Positions 14,611-39,372 of a stretch of 64,000 nucleotides of DNA are shown here, one piece after another. The stretch covers positions 1 through 64,000 of the forward strand of contig VEPM01000019.1 of the NCBI GenBank assembly GCA_012026795.1, read 5' to 3'. The first letter of the stretch is position 1. Each line of letters starts with the position of its first letter. Origin of the DNA: Candidatus Methanoperedens sp. (GTDB taxonomy: Archaea > Halobacteriota > Methanosarcinia > Methanosarcinales > Methanoperedenaceae). A program made the translations under genes and the position numbers. The notes under the pieces were generated by a model. It saw only the letters and a list, made by a program, of their open reading frames with translations. It was not told the DNA's origin and did not search any database.

Positions 14611-15084
14611 ATGATGGAAATATCATTAATGTTACTTGCGCCAGTACCTGTTCCAATCATAACTGAGTCAGCTATTGAAGGAACCATAAATGGAATAGAT
14701 ATGAGCGGCACAATTGTCCGCCTGATATCATTCCTGCTGGGAATATGCGGCGCAACTTATCTTGCGGCTGGATTGTGGTCAAGGTCTCTAAAAGGCTCCA
14801 ATAGCTGGAAATACCTCTCAATTTCAATGGTATTGTTTGTTTTCTGGAATATAATCGGAGCGTTCGGTATTTTGCTGGATGTTATAAAAGTCCAGAATTC
14901 CATAAACGATGTTTCAGTATCCCCGGAAGGATTGGATTTATTTTCATACATAGTCAAAGTTCTTGACCCCCTGTTAGAGGTCATTGTTTTCATCATATTA
15001 TTATTCGGACTTCGAAAAATAATTAGTGCAATGAGGACAAAGCCATGGACTGTGTTTAGCAAAGATGAAGAGGAGATTGAATAA
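14611..15084 (+). CDS. Membrane protein, first gene of a three-gene operon
   Basis: 157 residues with three to four hydrophobic segments (about 1-20 weak, 34-53, 67-90, 115-137) and a cytoplasmic tail ending in KDEEEIE. Its stop overlaps the next ATG by one base (TAATG at 15082-15086), which implies translational coupling. The gene is preceded by 209 bp of AT-rich DNA from 14402. Function not recognised; see the operon partner with zinc ribbons at 15406. Confidence 0.7.
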   Translation: MMEISLMLLAPVPVPIITESAIEGTINGIDMSGTIVRLISFLLGICGATYLAAGLWSRSLKGSNSWKYLSISMVLFVFWNIIGAFGILLDVIKVQNSINDVSVSPEGLDLFSYIVKVLDPLLEVIVFIILLFGLRKIISAMRTKPWTVFSKDEEEIE

Positions 15085-32853: not shown

Positions 32854-32879
32854 AGCAGGGTCACTTAATCGACCCCGCT
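32854..32879 (-). terminator. Hairpin terminator overlapping the lipoprotein stop codon
   Basis: On the minus strand AGCGGGGTC (32879-32871) pairs with GACCCTGCT (32862-32854) with one mismatch, followed by TTTTATT. The TGA stop of the lipoprotein gene (32861-32863) lies inside the stem. Confidence 0.55.
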
Positions 32880-33907
32880 ACTTTGATCATTTCTTCTTTG
32901 CTTAACTGGCTGGAAAGGGCTAATTCAAGCCTGCCAATGTTCCATATCAGTATTCTGGTCTCGCCAAATCCTGATATTATTTTCCCCTGCGCACCATTAA
33001 TACTGACCTTCTCGACTTCGTCTATATCAGGCGAAGGATTTGATTCATCTTGCAGTGTCTCGGAAAGCGAAAGTATCTGAGAACCTTTCTTATATTCCAG
33101 TGACACAGATTCGATATTTTCATATTTGAACACTGTGCTGCTGTTAAATGTAAAACCCTCAGGCAGATAAGAAGGCACAAGAACTGTGAAATTGACTTCT
33201 TTCCTTGCTTCCTCAAGTGTCAGCTTTTTGGGCGGCGCAGGAAGCTCTCTTGTAACCACCTTTGCGCCCTCAGGTATCTTGAACTCGAATTCGCTGTCGG
33301 GTATTCCGGTATTGAATTTCATGTCGCGGTATTCTATTGAAGTCATAAGCTTATCATTCTTATCCAATATCTCTGTCTTGAGAGGAATCCAGTTTTCACT
33401 GTCCACCAGCATATTATAATGCATGCCCATCATACTGCCGTTTTTTGGCGATGCTTTGATATTATATACGCTTCTCCCTTCAAATTTTTCCGTGCCCTGG
33501 TAAGATATGTCTGTCTGGTTCAGGATTTCCTGAATAAATTTAGTGTAATCCGGCTCAGGAGGATTGGCAATTTCAGGCATATCCATCCTGGTTACCTCAT
33601 TTTTCTCCGGGTCATAACTCCATATAGTCTTGCCGTCATTGACCATGACCTGGCCAGCCATCTTTGAAGGTTCAAGATATTCTATCCGGCTTTTATCAGG
33701 CATCTTGTTCATCATTTTTGCTTTTGCTATCTCGCTTTTGCCCCCATAATCCGAAGTAATTACCATAGTGGCCGAATAGTCTTTTATACTATCCTGTTTC
33801 GCTTTCATCTGTTGTGCGATCTGCTCGGCAGACATATTTGCAGTACATCCCGATATAAGGGATATTATAATAACTGCGAACAGAACTACTCCTGTTCTTT
33901 TAATCAT
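32861..33907 (-). CDS. LolA-like lipoprotein with C-terminal DUF4367-like domain
   Basis: 348 residues. A signal peptide ends in the lipobox LISGC (Cys21), so the protein is probably anchored outside the cell by a lipid. Residues about 25-215 resemble LolA/LppX/outer-membrane-lipoprotein-sorting folds (IKDYSATMVITSD, MPDKSRIEYLEPSKMAGQVMVNDGKTIWSYDPEKNEVTRMDM). Residues about 225-345 resemble DUF4367 (VLVPSYLPEGF, VSLEYKKGSQILSLSE, WNIGRLELALSSQLSKEEMIKVAGSI). A strong GGAGGA precedes the ATG. Archaea have no outer membrane of the bacterial kind, so it may bind lipids or polymers at the cell surface. Confidence 0.85.
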   Translation of the reverse strand: MIKRTGVVLFAVIIISLISGCTANMSAEQIAQQMKAKQDSIKDYSATMVITSDYGGKSEIAKAKMMNKMPDKSRIEYLEPSKMAGQVMVNDGKTIWSYDPEKNEVTRMDMPEIANPPEPDYTKFIQEILNQTDISYQGTEKFEGRSVYNIKASPKNGSMMGMHYNMLVDSENWIPLKTEILDKNDKLMTSIEYRDMKFNTGIPDSEFEFKIPEGAKVVTRELPAPPKKLTLEEARKEVNFTVLVPSYLPEGFTFNSSTVFKYENIESVSLEYKKGSQILSLSETLQDESNPSPDIDEVEKVSINGAQGKIISGFGETRILIWNIGRLELALSSQLSKEEMIKVAGSIK

Positions 33908-34041: not shown

Positions 34042-34446
34042 TTAAACTTCACCATTTTTAACAAAATAATAGGTTAATATTGCCCACGAATATATTCCGA
34101 TATGTGCGAGTATAAAAGGCATGAAGCGGTAATCTTTGGTTGCCAGCCAGATACTGTTGACCAGGCCCAATAGGAGCAGGCATACCACAAGGATCAAAAA
34201 TGCGTATAAACTCGCTTTTGAGCCAGCTCTTTTGGTTCGTTCATCGCCCACAGCTCCTGTTGTTGGTATTGACAGAACAAACAGGGAGAATATGATTATG
34301 TCAAAATTGAAAATAGTCTGGATAATTACGTCATTGCCAAAATAGTTCGGAGTTCTTCCTGAAATTTCTTGGATAATTGTAATTGCTAATGCCACAAGCG
34401 CGAGAATGAGAATCAAATATGCCCATTTTCTATTGAAGTTGTTCAC
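34042..34446 (-). CDS. DUF2178-like membrane protein
   Basis: 134 residues with four hydrophobic helices (about 9-26, 45-63, 83-103, 111-130). The loop GDERTKRAGSKASLYAFLILV matches the conserved DER(T/S) loop of DUF2178 proteins, archaeal/bacterial membrane proteins often next to small HTH regulators. It starts at a GTG that overlaps the stop of a 36-codon frame upstream (GAGTGAAC). Function unknown. Confidence 0.7.
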   Translation of the reverse strand: MNNFNRKWAYLILILALVALAITIIQEISGRTPNYFGNDVIIQTIFNFDIIIFSLFVLSIPTTGAVGDERTKRAGSKASLYAFLILVVCLLLLGLVNSIWLATKDYRFMPFILAHIGIYSWAILTYYFVKNGEV

Positions 34447-34673: not shown

Positions 34674-35033
34674 TCATCTGCTCTCATCCACAGTATAAAA
34701 TCCGGTTCTATCTGATATCAATATCTTCCTGTTTTTCCGCTCCCAGTAAGCCACTACAAGATACTGTGTCCAGGCAAACAAAAATAAACCTGAGAGAAAA
34801 GGATAATATTCTCTGATGCGTATCCCGGTTTTCACCAGCAAAAAGATAATTAAAAAAGTAACTAAAGCTATTAATCCAACTATTTTGAGGCAGTTAATTA
34901 CCTTATTTCTTCCGGTAACTTGCAGCCTCCTGTACTTTCCTTCGGCAACTTTATTGAGCCTGCGCCATTCGGCGATTCCAGCCCCTATACTTATGGAAGC
35001 CCCTGTGATTAAGCCTGAAAAGAAAAGATTCAT
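34674..35033 (-). CDS. Small membrane protein, last gene of the GWCPN operon
   Basis: 119 residues. A weak N-terminal helix with SGLITGASISIGAGIAEW is followed by a basic loop, two strong helices (about 48-68, 76-96) and a charged tail WERKNRKILISD. It overlaps the upstream gene by an ATGA at 35030-35033. No family recognised. It is the smallest of six membrane proteins behind the HTH regulator at 39151. Confidence 0.7.
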   Translation of the reverse strand: MNLFFSGLITGASISIGAGIAEWRRLNKVAEGKYRRLQVTGRNKVINCLKIVGLIALVTFLIIFLLVKTGIRIREYYPFLSGLFLFAWTQYLVVAYWERKNRKILISDRTGFYTVDESR

Positions 35034-35608
35034 GTTATCTTTTTCGCCGGAATAATATATTTCAATTTGAAAAAGTCATGCTCATTGCGAGGATAAAGCA
35101 AGATGTATCTTCCACCAGCGTTCATTCTAATCATATAAGGATAATTCGATATGCGGATAGTGGCATATAATGAATATGCAAAACCAATAACTGCTATAAG
35201 ATACCATATATTCATGACAGAGTCTGGCATGGAAACCACAAAATAAATCGACAGCAATATCATCATTAGTAATGATGCCAGGCTATTCCGCTTATGCCTG
35301 TTTCCATAGTTTTCAAATATTTCTATACTTTTGATGCTATTTTTAGGAATGATGATATCACCCAAAATCGGCGTAGTGATCTTCAATGTTTCACTGCCAA
35401 TAGATAATTTTGTATTAAAAAAAATGATAAGCAAAGCAACCAGGATAGAAGACAGAGTTATAAAATACCTATCTGTACCTGCCCATGCACTGCTGATTAT
35501 AACCGAACCCGCATAACCCAGAATAACAGCCCATATGCGCCAGTCGAACATTTGCAGCGGCACGTCCATATCCTTATGAATGGAATTATTTTCTGAAAAT
35601 GTTGTCAC
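35030..35608 (-). CDS. Membrane protein with PH-like domain, GWCPN operon
   Basis: 192 residues from a GTG that overlaps the upstream stop (GTGA). Order: MDVPLQMFDWRIW, two helices, a beta-rich PH-like segment (KLSIGSETLKITTPILGDIIIPKNSIKSIEIFE), two helices, then RISNYPYMIRMNAGGRYILLYPRNEHDF. Its layout and the (I/V)PLQMFDWR and YPRNE(H/Y)(D/E)F motifs are shared with the gene at 36222, but it lacks the N-terminal GWCPN segment. It looks like a diverged duplicate. Confidence 0.75.
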   Translation of the reverse strand: MTTFSENNSIHKDMDVPLQMFDWRIWAVILGYAGSVIISSAWAGTDRYFITLSSILVALLIIFFNTKLSIGSETLKITTPILGDIIIPKNSIKSIEIFENYGNRHKRNSLASLLMMILLSIYFVVSMPDSVMNIWYLIAVIGFAYSLYATIRISNYPYMIRMNAGGRYILLYPRNEHDFFKLKYIIPAKKIT

Positions 35609-36225
35609 TGAACTACCTCTAATTTACTTTCCAGTTCCTGCGGATTATTTGTATAGAATGTAATTTCACGATTTTTTGTCATTATTTTGAGAACAGCAGG
35701 ATGGTATGATCTAACCATGTAATTGTAGAATATCACAGCAACAAGAACAGTGGTCATAGGGATGGAATAAGCAGTAATGAATTTCACTATCACAGGAGCA
35801 GAACTTGCAGCATTGTGGTATAAACTGGTTATATTTTTTTCTATTGAAAATAATAATCCTACAAGCGCAAAGGAGTATAAAATCCATCTAAACCTGTAAC
35901 CGGGATTCTTTATGACATTGATTGATACAATGCTTTCTTTTTGTATCAAGACAGACTTTAGCAGGGGCCGGTGGATAATAATGTTGTGAGGTGTAAGCTC
36001 AACGGTTGTTTTATTCTGAAGAAGTAAAATCAAAAAGGCAAAATAGAATATTGAAATGGCGATTATATCGATTGCATTATAATTGATGTTAACGAGCAAT
36101 AATAGAAATGCTATTATAGAAGCGGGCAATATAATACTTATTATACCGGCATCACGGGAACTATCTACAAGAATTTTTATCCGGTCATGCTCTGGCACCT
36201 TATTTTGTGAATAAATGGCATTCAT
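35605..36225 (-). CDS. Membrane protein with PH-like domain, GWCPN operon
   Basis: 206 residues. Two N-terminal helices (about 27-47, 51-70), a beta-rich segment TVELTPHNIIIHRPLLKSVLIQKESIVSINVIKN, two further helices, then a C-terminal SYHPAVLKIMTKNREITFYTNNPQELESKL. It has the same 2TM-beta-2TM-beta order as its neighbours, with a diverged C-terminal motif. Start and stop overlap both neighbours by four bases, so the three genes are translationally coupled. Confidence 0.75.
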   Translation of the reverse strand: MNAIYSQNKVPEHDRIKILVDSSRDAGIISIILPASIIAFLLLLVNINYNAIDIIAISIFYFAFLILLLQNKTTVELTPHNIIIHRPLLKSVLIQKESIVSINVIKNPGYRFRWILYSFALVGLLFSIEKNITSLYHNAASSAPVIVKFITAYSIPMTTVLVAVIFYNYMVRSYHPAVLKIMTKNREITFYTNNPQELESKLEVVQ

Positions 36226-36923
36226 TTCTCCAATTCCCCCTTAAGAATATTAAACTCATATTCATTTCTGGGGTAGAGAGTGATGCTATTTATGGTTTCT
36301 ATCTTGATGGCTTTTGGATAATGTGATATGCGAATATTTCTTTGAAGGGACGATATAAGTAAAAAAATCAAAAAAACAGGCATAGCAATACTAAATATCA
36401 TCTCTTCCAGGGATGCTGATAATATTATCTTGCGGTACAAAATCAGTACTTGCAGAAAAACAAATAGCATGATAAAGATAATTAAGACAATATTTAACCA
36501 TCTATATTTATAAATAGAATTGTCGATAATTTTTATAGAATTGATATTATGTTTTGGGATATTGACAGGTTTGAGGAAAGGCGTACTTATCTGAATCTTT
36601 TCATGGTCAATCGAAATTTTGAACCTGTCAAAGGTGGAAAAAAATACAATAAATAAAATGTAAACAGGTATGTAACCAGGAAATCCATTAAATAAATCAA
36701 CGAATATTAAAATAAAACCTGAAATACCCAGAATTAATACAATTGAAAAAGTGCGCCAGTCAAACATCTGGATCGGTATATCCATATTCTCAACCGGGTA
36801 ATATCTGGATGATCTCTTATTGCTATGGGGGTTATCTGTAATAAAAACGTCTTTAACCGTGGAAAAATCTGTTTTCTGCGGGCACCATCCCATCAATTTC
36901 CTGACATATTCAAAAGAGACCAT
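36222..36923 (-). CDS. GWCP-motif membrane protein with PH-like domain
   Basis: 233 residues. The start at ATG 36923 is chosen because it lies one base after the upstream stop and has a GGGGTG about ten bases before it; the frame is open to 36950. The N-terminus is MVSFEYVRKLMGWCPQKTDF, then DIPIQMFDWRTF, two helices, the beta segment FKISIDHEKIQISTPFLKPVNIPKHNINSIKI, two helices, and RISHYPKAIKIETINSITLYPRNEYEF. The N-terminal GWCP element resembles the DUF1673-type proteins of Methanosarcina (recalled, not searched). Function unknown. Confidence 0.75.
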   Translation of the reverse strand: MVSFEYVRKLMGWCPQKTDFSTVKDVFITDNPHSNKRSSRYYPVENMDIPIQMFDWRTFSIVLILGISGFILIFVDLFNGFPGYIPVYILFIVFFSTFDRFKISIDHEKIQISTPFLKPVNIPKHNINSIKIIDNSIYKYRWLNIVLIIFIMLFVFLQVLILYRKIILSASLEEMIFSIAMPVFLIFLLISSLQRNIRISHYPKAIKIETINSITLYPRNEYEFNILKGELEK

Positions 36924-36924
36924 T

Positions 36925-37698
36925 TCAATTTGCACCCCTGTAATGTTCAATAGAAGCCTGTATTTCAGATGCTGTCGTCTCGTCTGTTATGATCGAATAA
37001 TAGGATGTGTTCGTTAGTTCATGCCATCTTTTACGTCGGTTCTTGTCTTCATACTGAATGTATAACTGTGTATCCAGATTATGATATTCCTTATCTTGCT
37101 TGTGTTTCACTAGCAAAAGCCAGGGCAGTAGTGAAGCAACTGATATGGTCAATTTCCAGTCTCCTGACTTCAATGAGTAAGTAAGCAACATAACAAGCAT
37201 TGCAGCAAGAAGCAGTAACCCTATTACAATTAGTCCGATTGGAAGTTTAACGCCTTTTCTTATAGTTATTGATTTAACGTTCCTATAATTTAGCAATACG
37301 TCCCTTAGCTCGAAATTTCTTAAATGCACACCGTTTTCATCAATTAAAATATGCGCCTTAAAAGTTATAGCCACAATGAGGTAAAGTAAGGATAATATTC
37401 CAACAAGAACTGGGATCAAGATTGCATAGTCCAGATTTCTGGCCACAGCCAATATCAAATTCAGACTGATAACAAGGCAAATAGTGAACAAGATATTGTT
37501 AGCAGAAAACATTACATTTTTGGATTGAAATTTTCCAGCATTTGGTTTACCAGGGGGTTCCTGCGGAAGGTGTGCAAAATCGACGGATGTGGTCTTTTCG
37601 TGTATCACCGGATTTGCATTCGGACACCAGCCCATAGTACGCTTAATTGCTTCGATATTCAATTTTACCACCTTTTCTTCATGAATATTTCCCGGCAT
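36925..37698 (-). CDS. GWCPN-motif membrane protein (DUF1673-like)
   Basis: 257 residues from ATG 37698, preceded by GGGAG; an upstream in-frame start at 37887 would lie inside the previous gene. The N-terminus reads LNIEAIKRTMGWCPNANPVI. Helix pairs lie at about 78-125 and 178-222, with a beta-rich segment (HILIDENGVHLRNFELRDVLLNYRNVKSITI) between them. A charged C-terminal domain contains NRRKRWHELTNTSYYSIITD. It has the same plan as the neighbouring genes. Function unknown. Confidence 0.75.
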   Translation of the reverse strand: MPGNIHEEKVVKLNIEAIKRTMGWCPNANPVIHEKTTSVDFAHLPQEPPGKPNAGKFQSKNVMFSANNILFTICLVISLNLILAVARNLDYAILIPVLVGILSLLYLIVAITFKAHILIDENGVHLRNFELRDVLLNYRNVKSITIRKGVKLPIGLIVIGLLLLAAMLVMLLTYSLKSGDWKLTISVASLLPWLLLVKHKQDKEYHNLDTQLYIQYEDKNRRKRWHELTNTSYYSIITDETTASEIQASIEHYRGAN

Positions 37699-37712
37699 AC
37701 ATTTTGCTCCCT

Positions 37713-38708
37713 CTACGAAAGCCAGCCAGCGAAAAATAGCCTGGCCAGTGTGTTGAAAGTCATAATTACTCCAAGAGCCGCAAACAGAAGATGGATTATC
37801 TTGCGTCCCATTGAATGACTGCTTTTTGCGGTTAGTCCTGCCATAGCGCCTGCTACAGCAGATATGGCGGCGAAGAAACCTATCCACTGCTGTGCTGTTT
37901 CAGGGATGTAGGAAGGATTAAGAAGAGTAAAAATGAGGGATCCGTCAATTAACGCAATAAAGGCGATAGGCAAATCCAGTATACCAAAAATCCTGCTTAG
38001 CCATAAAACAGTGACTTCTGCTGTAGGAGGGCGGATTCCAATAATATTTTCATTATCGATGCTTTCTAATTTTACTGTTTTTCTGGAGGCTACACTTGCG
38101 TTTGGACACCAGCCTATAGAATGCTTAATAAGTTCAACCAAGCCTGAACCTTCTGTAACTAACTTCTGTCCATATTTTTTATTGAACCGTATGCTCAAAA
38201 AGCTTGGAATCGAGGGAAGTAATGCAAAAATGAACGCCCAATAAATGCTCCATTCCATTTTATAATTATCATTCAATAAAGAAAGCTCAAGAATAATCAC
38301 AGCAAATAGCCCTGAAAGCAGGATTACATTAAAATAACAGAGTTTAGAATATAATTTTCTAAAGATGAGAATATTATAAATTAACACAATAGTTGTAACT
38401 GAGAACAGCATACTTGCTACTGATAAAGTAATATCTGCCAAAAAAGATCCGTAGTTTAGCGCAAGATATGATATATTGTGAAGGTCGAAAGCTTGATAAA
38501 CGCTCATCGGTAAAATAAACAAAGACGCAAACAGCAGAGTAAAAACATGCCCGATGATTAATAAATCTAATTTCCATTTTTTAACAGGTAAACCGGCATT
38601 TATTGACTCTATTTTATATTCTACGTACCCTATTTTTTGCTCTGTTATACTTGCATTCGGACACCAGCCCATCATTTTCTTAACATTTTCCATTAAATTT
38701 ATCATCAT
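37713..38708 (-). CDS. Double GWCPNAS-motif membrane protein (DUF1673-like)
   Basis: 331 residues. The first module is ENVKKMMGWCPNASITEQK followed by about four helices (residues 48-160). A second module is ELIKHSIGWCPNASVASRK (about residues 193-212) followed by four more helices. It therefore looks like a fusion or duplication of two units. Its ATG overlaps the HTH regulator's TGA (ATGA, 38705-38708). It is the first membrane gene of the operon. No enzymatic motif; the invariant Cys in GWCPN could bind metal or form a disulfide. Confidence 0.78.
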   Translation of the reverse strand: MMINLMENVKKMMGWCPNASITEQKIGYVEYKIESINAGLPVKKWKLDLLIIGHVFTLLFASLFILPMSVYQAFDLHNISYLALNYGSFLADITLSVASMLFSVTTIVLIYNILIFRKLYSKLCYFNVILLSGLFAVIILELSLLNDNYKMEWSIYWAFIFALLPSIPSFLSIRFNKKYGQKLVTEGSGLVELIKHSIGWCPNASVASRKTVKLESIDNENIIGIRPPTAEVTVLWLSRIFGILDLPIAFIALIDGSLIFTLLNPSYIPETAQQWIGFFAAISAVAGAMAGLTAKSSHSMGRKIIHLLFAALGVIMTFNTLARLFFAGWLS

Positions 38709-39151
38709 GCCAGCCCCCTCAACTTCTCAAAAAGTTCCTCAGCCAGCTTCGTTGGATCGTCAGTTTTTTCAAGCTGAAGCTTCATCTCATCAGCAAAATC
38801 CCACAGCAGTTCAATGCATTGTGCATATCTTGTACAGGTGCCGCAATTCCCTTCATGCTCGTACCATACCTGCATTCCATGCTTTGCAGATACGAAAATT
38901 ATGGCGCTGGCATTAAAGGGCACAGAATGCCCGAACAGGATGCCTCGATCCGTGTTTATCTTCTCTACCTCTATCTGGTTTGCGCGCGCCATCTCAACAA
39001 GGGTTTTTTCTATCCTTTCATCCATCGTGAGGAGCGCCTTTGAAACAGCCTGTTTGGAGATTTTGAACAGACGCGCTATGTCAATGCTGAGAATACCGCT
39101 GCGCCTCAGCCTCCAGAACTCAAACTGCTTGTCATTTAAAGGAAGGAACAT
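38705..39151 (-). CDS. HTH transcriptional regulator heading the GWCPN operon
   Basis: 148 residues. The N-terminal helix-turn-helix (LNDKQFEFWRLRRSGILSIDIARLFKISKQAVSKALLTMDERI) resembles Tfx/sigma-region-4-like archaeal regulators. A C-terminal sensor-like domain carries a cysteine cluster, CGTCTRYAQC, which could bind a metal or Fe-S centre. A perfect palindrome lies directly in front of the ATG, suggesting autorepression. It is coupled to the first membrane gene. The ligand is unknown. Confidence 0.8.
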   Translation of the reverse strand: MFLPLNDKQFEFWRLRRSGILSIDIARLFKISKQAVSKALLTMDERIEKTLVEMARANQIEVEKINTDRGILFGHSVPFNASAIIFVSAKHGMQVWYEHEGNCGTCTRYAQCIELLWDFADEMKLQLEKTDDPTKLAEELFEKLRGLA

Positions 39152-39152
39152 G

Positions 39153-39174
39153 TGTCAATATATGAGTATTGACA
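39153..39174. promoter_or_regulatory. Palindromic operator at the GWCPN operon promoter
   Basis: TGTCAATA (39153-39160) and TATTGACA (39167-39174) form a perfect 8-bp inverted repeat with a 6-bp centre. It sits between a TATA-like 'ctttatattg' (39173-39182 read on the minus strand) and the regulator ATG at 39151. A related half-site TGTGTCAT lies at 39186-39193. A protein bound here would block initiation. Confidence 0.65.
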
Positions 39175-39372
39175 ATATAAAGATTATGACACATTATCCT
39201 GGAAGGTATTAATTACCCCCTCTAAATTAAATGGTAAATAGAAAAAAATATTTTTAGTGAAGCCTCTACAATATTTGATATTTTTGAATAATGATATTCA
39301 TAATTGTATAATCAGCCATGTTAATGCTCAGTAATAAGCCTATATAAACTGTCAAAACAAAAAAGAGTTATT

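Follow-up and report, generated by a model that had tools for sequence, protein, structure and literature searches.

A Tfx-like regulator, its operator and a GWCP tag as the constant unit of variable membrane-protein operons in Candidatus Methanoperedens and related archaea

The minus-strand operon at positions 34674-39151 of the window (the whole analysed stretch of 64,000 nucleotides from contig VEPM01000019.1 of a Candidatus Methanoperedens genome) couples a Tfx-like regulator with a set of membrane proteins, several of which carry a short N-terminal GWCP tag. The constant unit of this and of related loci is the regulator, its operator and the tag. The GWCP/DUF1673 family itself is not new: a "MGWCP motif, DUF1673" family (arCOG06827), expanded in Methanosarcina, was noted in 2014 (PMC4158269), and DUF1673 forms a large supercluster (PMC4390880). 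What is new is the comparison, which brings together the regulator, the operator and the modular tag. In the literature searched, DUF1673 was found in two papers and MGWCP in one, and nothing was found on the regulator, the operator or a modular tag. The operon had originally been predicted to be uncharacterised; the family is uncharacterised as well, but it is on record.

Organization of the operon

Of the seven tightly packed ORFs (Table 1), one encodes an HTH regulator and the others encode six coupled membrane proteins. Overlaps of 4 bp occur at the junctions between the regulator and gene 2 and between genes 4/5, 5/6 and 6/7, a gap of 14 bp separates genes 2 and 3, and genes 3 and 4 overlap by 8 bp if the start of gene 4 is taken as the ATG at 36932. 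The tight seven-gene arrangement of the original prediction is thereby borne out, as is the occurrence of GWCP(N/Q) on three of the membrane proteins, one of them doubly. The N-terminal MGWCP element reads GWCPN in gene 2 (twice) and gene 3 and GWCPQ in gene 4, and is absent from genes 5, 6 and 7. Gene 6 has lost a tag region that is kept by its 82%-identical relative in another locus (L068).

Table 1. Features of the operon and its promoter region (positions in the window)
Feature	Position	Strand	Length	Description
Putative TATA box, TTTATATT	39174..39181	-		Abuts operator; read from sequence
Operator palindrome, GTCAATACTCATATATTGAC	39154..39173	-		2 bp before regulator ATG; position and form conserved in aligned upstream regions
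Regulator	38705..39151	-	148 aa	N-terminal HTH, long stem helix, beta sheet, Cys cluster H99/C103/C106/C112, two helices; Tfx/EnfR-like
Gene 2	37713..38708	-	331 aa	Membrane protein; two GWCPN tags at 38640-38708 and 38094-38141 (fused pair); DUF1673-like
Gene 3	36925..37698	-	257 aa	Membrane protein; GWCPN tag at 37606-37659; DUF1673-like (7e-7); start at about 37698
Gene 4	36222..36932	-	236 aa	GWCPQ tag at 36870-36926; TM/beta plan; end YPRNEYEF
Gene 5	35605..36225	-	206 aa	Body type as gene 4; without tag
Gene 6	35030..35608	-	192 aa	Body type as gene 4; end YPRNEHDF; without tag region
Gene 7	34674..35033	-	119 aa	DUF1673 (9.6e-10, above cutoff) without the N-terminal tagged part

Other structural claims of the prediction were upheld in part. 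A common 2TM-beta-2TM-beta plan had been ascribed to four proteins; such a common TM/beta alignment was obtained for genes 4, 5 and 6 only. Likewise, the exact YPRNE(Y/H) ending occurs in genes 4 and 6 and not in four proteins. The likeness to membrane-tethered PH domains is weak: relatives of the related 2-TM type matched bPH families at 0.0045-0.06, and the alignment of the window's own type had no match in the PDB, so the PH-domain fold is kept as a lead. A single-sequence AlphaFold2 model of gene 4 was poor (pLDDT 51) and was left out of the results.

Two further minus-strand genes lie nearby. Downstream of the operon, across a 227-bp gap, is a gene for a DUF2178 membrane protein (34042-34446), and close to the operon a lipoprotein with LolA/MucB-RseB-like and DUF4367 domains is encoded (32861-33907). 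RseB-like proteins are envelope-stress sensors in bacteria.

The regulator

The H-x3-C-x2-C-x5-C cluster of the regulator (H99, C103, C106 and C112) is invariant in all 125 distinct regulator sequences, as are W96, Y97 and G101; the cysteine cluster noted in the original prediction is thus real, and its cysteines are conserved throughout. CX2CX5C is the ligand spacing of the FNR and WhiB Fe-S proteins, and a metal or Fe-S centre is probably bound by the H-C-C-C cluster, within or close to the docking surface proposed below. Speculatively, the fourth ligand would be either H99 or the cysteine of the tag.

Relatives of the regulator, with 53-97% identity, were detected in 97 of the 238 genomes of the class. 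The closest belong to Ca. Methanoperedens, among them a 96%-identical copy in strain BLZ2, which assigns the window to this genus, of which M. nitroreducens ANME-2d is also a member. Others occur in Methanoculleus, Methanoregula, Methanolinea, Methanospirillum and one Archaeoglobales MAG.

When an AlphaFold2 model of the regulator built with 63 aligned sequences (pLDDT 88) was compared with the PDB (Foldseek, 350,542 chains), ranks 1-3 were taken by EnfR, with a probability of 0.84-0.92, an E-value of ~0.1 and a TM-score of only 0.32-0.38. Weak as this match is, the elements of the "eighth note" fold (two helices, a long stem helix and a C-terminal alpha+beta domain) follow in the same order in the model. 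The NCBIfam tfx model (TIGR00721) was matched weakly by 8/8 regulators scanned (best 2.5e-4). At 17.4 bits, the regulator misses the curated cutoff of 60.25 bits; it is therefore Tfx-like and is not filed as a member of the Tfx family. It resembles Tfx/EnfR (Thermococcus TON_1525; PDB 8hno, 8hnp) in its length and its HTH, in the predicted stem helix with C-terminal alpha+beta domain, and also in being associated with a promoter palindrome. EnfR is known to act on its palindrome as a repressor (PMC10570040), an action that is presumed for the present regulator. The score below the cutoff, the invariant cysteine cluster and a different operator set the regulator apart from Tfx/EnfR.

Operator and regulon

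A 20-bp palindrome of the form GTMAAY-N8-RTTKAC was found just before the start codon in 119 of 122 distinct upstream regions (including two from stand-alone tagged genes), and in 115 of the 122 the distance is exactly 2 bp. Many of the aligned regions also contain an AT-rich, TATA-like element at about -30. By archaeal promoter logic, an operator that follows the TATA box and precedes the start codon implies repression, and this placement suggests that the regulator would act as a repressor.

In a search of 30 genomes for the operator with a start codon, 19 of the 20 regulator-bearing genomes were matched and none of the 10 regulator-less ones, while the reversed control gave only 2 matches. 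The genome of the window contains the operator with start-codon spacing exactly twice: in front of this operon, and in front of a stand-alone tagged gene on contig 6 (L228:8616-9881), the product of which carries an orphan AglB/STT3-type C-terminal domain. The first six residues of this product, MFLPLN, are those of the regulator, and the gene looks like a copy of the regulator's promoter and start fused to a tagged gene. The presence of the operator before a stand-alone tagged gene is the strongest evidence that the tagged genes constitute the regulon, and a regulon comprising the regulator and the GWCP-tagged proteins is well supported.

A second copy of this type of stand-alone tagged gene occurs in another Methanoperedens (L230). 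Extra operator-like sites in three genomes (G154, G157 and G150) were discarded, as they lead into decayed or non-coding frames; only the G154 site looks like a relic. At yet another locus (L244, contig 3 of G072), the regulator gene behind the operator carries an internal deletion and a frameshift; tagged genes follow it, and the locus appears to be a decaying copy.

Association of the regulator with the tag

At 79 of 82 regulator loci, a GWxP protein is encoded among the first two downstream genes; of the remaining three, one encodes an SWCP protein instead and another is interrupted by a gap in the assembly. The regulator adjoins GWCP genes across several families, and the members are thus not scattered singletons. 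Among the 238 genomes of the class, 85 contain both regulator and tag, 1 the tag only, 12 the regulator only and 140 neither. The corresponding numbers in a sample of 394 genomes from the phylum are 66, 1, 10 and 317, such that 66 of 67 tag bearers have the regulator. Fisher's test of the co-occurrence gave p <1e-49, with shared ancestry ignored. The tag without a regulator was seen in G013, a fragmented assembly. Within the genus of the window the distribution is patchy yet matched: both occur in 22 genomes and neither in 7, the regulator was found but no tag at the threshold in 2, and the tag never occurs alone. With a threshold of E<1e-3, the tag was matched in 20 whole genomes at regulator loci with few exceptions, and regulator-less genomes had no match. 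On contig 21 of the window's own genome (L231, ~14703-14768), the tag is well matched in an open frame of 53 aa that has no regulator nearby and is a probable gene relic.

The GWCP tag and DUF1673

The GWCP(N/Q) DNA pattern has exactly four matches in the 3.59-Mb genome, all of them inside the operon, and the reversed control had none; a chance motif was rejected on this ground. A lipoprotein signal was also dismissed on inspection, since no hydrophobic h-region precedes GWC and the residue at -1 is W rather than G/A. The N-terminal tag has the consensus E-x-I-[RK]-K-L-M-G-W-C-P-N and coincides with the start of the DUF1673 profile (PF07895; gathering cutoff 30.4 bits). Gene 7 exceeds this cutoff (39.2 bits), gene 3 comes near it (29.8), genes 2 and 4 score 21.8 and 14.8 bits, and genes 5 and 6 gave no match to the profile. 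The closest known family for genes 2, 3, 4 and 7, which match the profile, is PF07895 (arCOG06827, supercluster SC.00027). In the published entries DUF1673 is one lineage-specific membrane family, whereas here GWCP emerges as a tag that can be separated from the family, occurs on many bodies and is linked to a single regulator and operator.

From the distribution of charge, the tag is predicted to lie on the cytoplasmic side. Net charges before and after the first TM segment were +2.7 and -0.3 for the AglB-domain type and +1.9 and 0 for DUF1673; the signal is clearest in these two types and is not clear in several smaller clusters. With the tag inside and one or five TM segments, the AglB-like domain would be located outside, as it is in AglB. 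At one locus (L131) the tag reads GWRP, and its cysteine is thus not strictly required everywhere.

Bodies behind the tag

The 377 unique tagged segments were distributed among 17 clusters of bodies, 14 of which have at least two members; the clusters were defined by BLAST, so some may be distant relatives, but the named ones are clearly different families. Tags on different bodies at different loci are 31% identical, versus 7% for random stretches, counted outside GWC because the proteins had been selected on GWC. By this comparison, the GWCP tag appears to be a module common to otherwise unrelated membrane bodies. Tags on different bodies at the same locus are slightly more alike than those between loci (0.35 vs 0.31, p ~0.008), which hints only weakly at co-adaptation between the tags and the regulator of their locus.

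The tagged bodies include SdpI/DUF1648 in Methanoregula (6e-17) and a polysaccharide flippase, Polysacc_synt_3 (3e-21). As a control, 19 Polysacc_synt_3 genes were inspected in two Methanosarcina genomes, and the tag was confined to the two that adjoin the regulator. This flippase is the tagged protein adjoining a second regulator copy in two Methanosarcina genomes (L117 and L118). Other tagged proteins, with 1 or 5 TM segments, end in a WWDY-type domain related to the C-terminus of AglB (PDB 3vgp, 3e-8; 3vu0, 5e-8); they resemble the AglB/STT3 oligosaccharyltransferase in this domain but lack its catalytic multi-TM domain. Downstream of the regulator, a full-size STT3-type protein of ~575 aa adjoins tagged genes at four Methanoperedens loci (L073, L074, L087 and, as a partial sequence, L076). 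The tagged 2-TM, PH-like bodies gave only weak Pfam bPH matches. The envelope connection proposed for the operon is upheld.

The bodies turn over rapidly. The regulators of the window and of one locus (L070) share 92% identity, yet the window's bodies have at most short local matches there, and at another (L082; regulator 82% identical) only some of them have longer matches. A six-protein complex is not borne out by the comparison: the set of partners differs from genome to genome, and only the regulator, the operator and the tag persist.

Proposed mechanism and alternatives

The best explanation, to which we give an even chance, is a self-regulated membrane-to-promoter relay, in which an autorepressor docks on a common tag. 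A dimer of the regulator would bind the palindrome and repress its own operon, while the cytoplasmic tag would serve as a docking site for the C-terminal domain of the regulator, enabling the tagged proteins to hold the repressor at the membrane. Such a role is the simplest one for a tag that is common to unrelated membrane proteins of one regulon and lies on the regulator's side. A stimulus outside or in the membrane, such as a toxic peptide or a disturbed glycosylation or lipid state, would alter the hold of a tagged protein on the regulator, whereupon the operon would be turned on and more of the protective membrane proteins produced. The bodies would then be swappable sensors or effectors, and the regulator, operator and tag a fixed chassis. 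Since three of the six membrane proteins of the window (genes 5, 6 and 7) have lost the tag yet stay in the operon, some members would act without docking. Damage to the envelope, or an attack on it, is the stimulus suggested by those bodies that are related to glycosylation or resemble immunity proteins.

A precedent is provided by Bacillus subtilis, in which SdpI responds to its toxin, protects against it and keeps the autorepressor SdpR sequestered at the membrane (PMC1626106); a membrane-sequestration circuit thus works, and SdpI itself is among the tagged bodies. In both systems a gene for an autorepressor, putative in the present case, is followed by a gene for a membrane protein, which in Methanoregula is a tagged SdpI/DUF1648 body. 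Here, however, the regulator is Tfx-like with a cysteine cluster and is not SdpR, many unrelated bodies bear one added tag, and sequestration is a proposal. The window operon contains no SdpI-family partner, and it was not filed as SdpRI.

The SdpI-type body would also suit a locus for immunity or resistance to competitors' membrane-active peptides, with immunity proteins diversified in an arms race and regulated in the manner of sdpRI. A resemblance of the PH-like bodies to PH-domain proteins from bacteriocin loci (PMC8657885), albeit through weak Pfam bPH matches, would fit this reading, as would the fast turnover of the bodies behind a regulator that retains 82-96% identity within the genus. 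This reading is partly a special case of the relay; on its own it is possible though on the unlikely side, for no toxin gene was identified beside the loci, and both the orphan AglB domain and the flippase suggest a link with surface glycans and not with peptide immunity. It is also rather unlikely that the regulator alone senses redox state or metal through its H-C-C-C cluster, the tag being a handle for assembly, insertion or quality control. The invariance of the cluster, its FNR/WhiB-like spacing and the few genomes with a regulator but no detectable tag would fit such a sensor, but an assembly handle should also occur outside the regulon, and the matches in the 20 whole genomes argue against this.

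An anti-viral defence or toxin-antitoxin-like locus, in which the regulator would hold off tagged membrane effectors, is highly improbable. Small, fast-evolving membrane proteins together with an HTH autorepressor are features that such a locus might show, and DUF1673 is listed among the abundant "dark matter island" families (PMC4158269). A defence system was nevertheless rejected, since none of the eight proteins scanned had a PADLOC match and no relative of the regulator was found in 2.9 million viral contigs; moreover, the window operon lacks a nuclease, NTPase or other defence enzyme. That GWCP is a heme-regulatory CP motif, in an operon managing heme or cytochromes, is barely credible. 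It does place Cys-Pro beside basic residues in the cytochrome-bearing Methanosarcinales, but regulator and tag are commonly found together in Methanoculleus and other Methanomicrobiales, which lack cytochromes, and the invariant W of GWCP does not belong to the usual surroundings of a heme-regulatory motif.

A more specific form of the relay, which we regard as decidedly doubtful, is that the cysteine of the tag completes an Fe-S or zinc centre in which the three invariant cysteines of the regulator leave one coordination position open, thereby joining repressor and membrane protein. If so, any membrane protein could gain control over the promoter through a 20-residue tag, which would constitute a plug-in signalling chassis of a kind that, to our knowledge, has no described precedent.

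Biological significance

Through these findings a catalogued family of unknown function becomes a defined regulatory system, to which a named regulator, an operator and a regulon can be assigned and for which a proposed docking peptide can be tested. The system spans many genomes of Methanosarcinales, Methanomicrobiales and the methane-oxidising Methanoperedens, and its relatives in the genetically tractable Methanosarcina make direct testing possible. If the relay is correct, the linking of unrelated membrane proteins to a single transcription factor by one short peptide would be unusual in design. The presence of orphan oligosaccharyltransferase domains hints that the glycosylation of the cell surface may be monitored by the archaea themselves.
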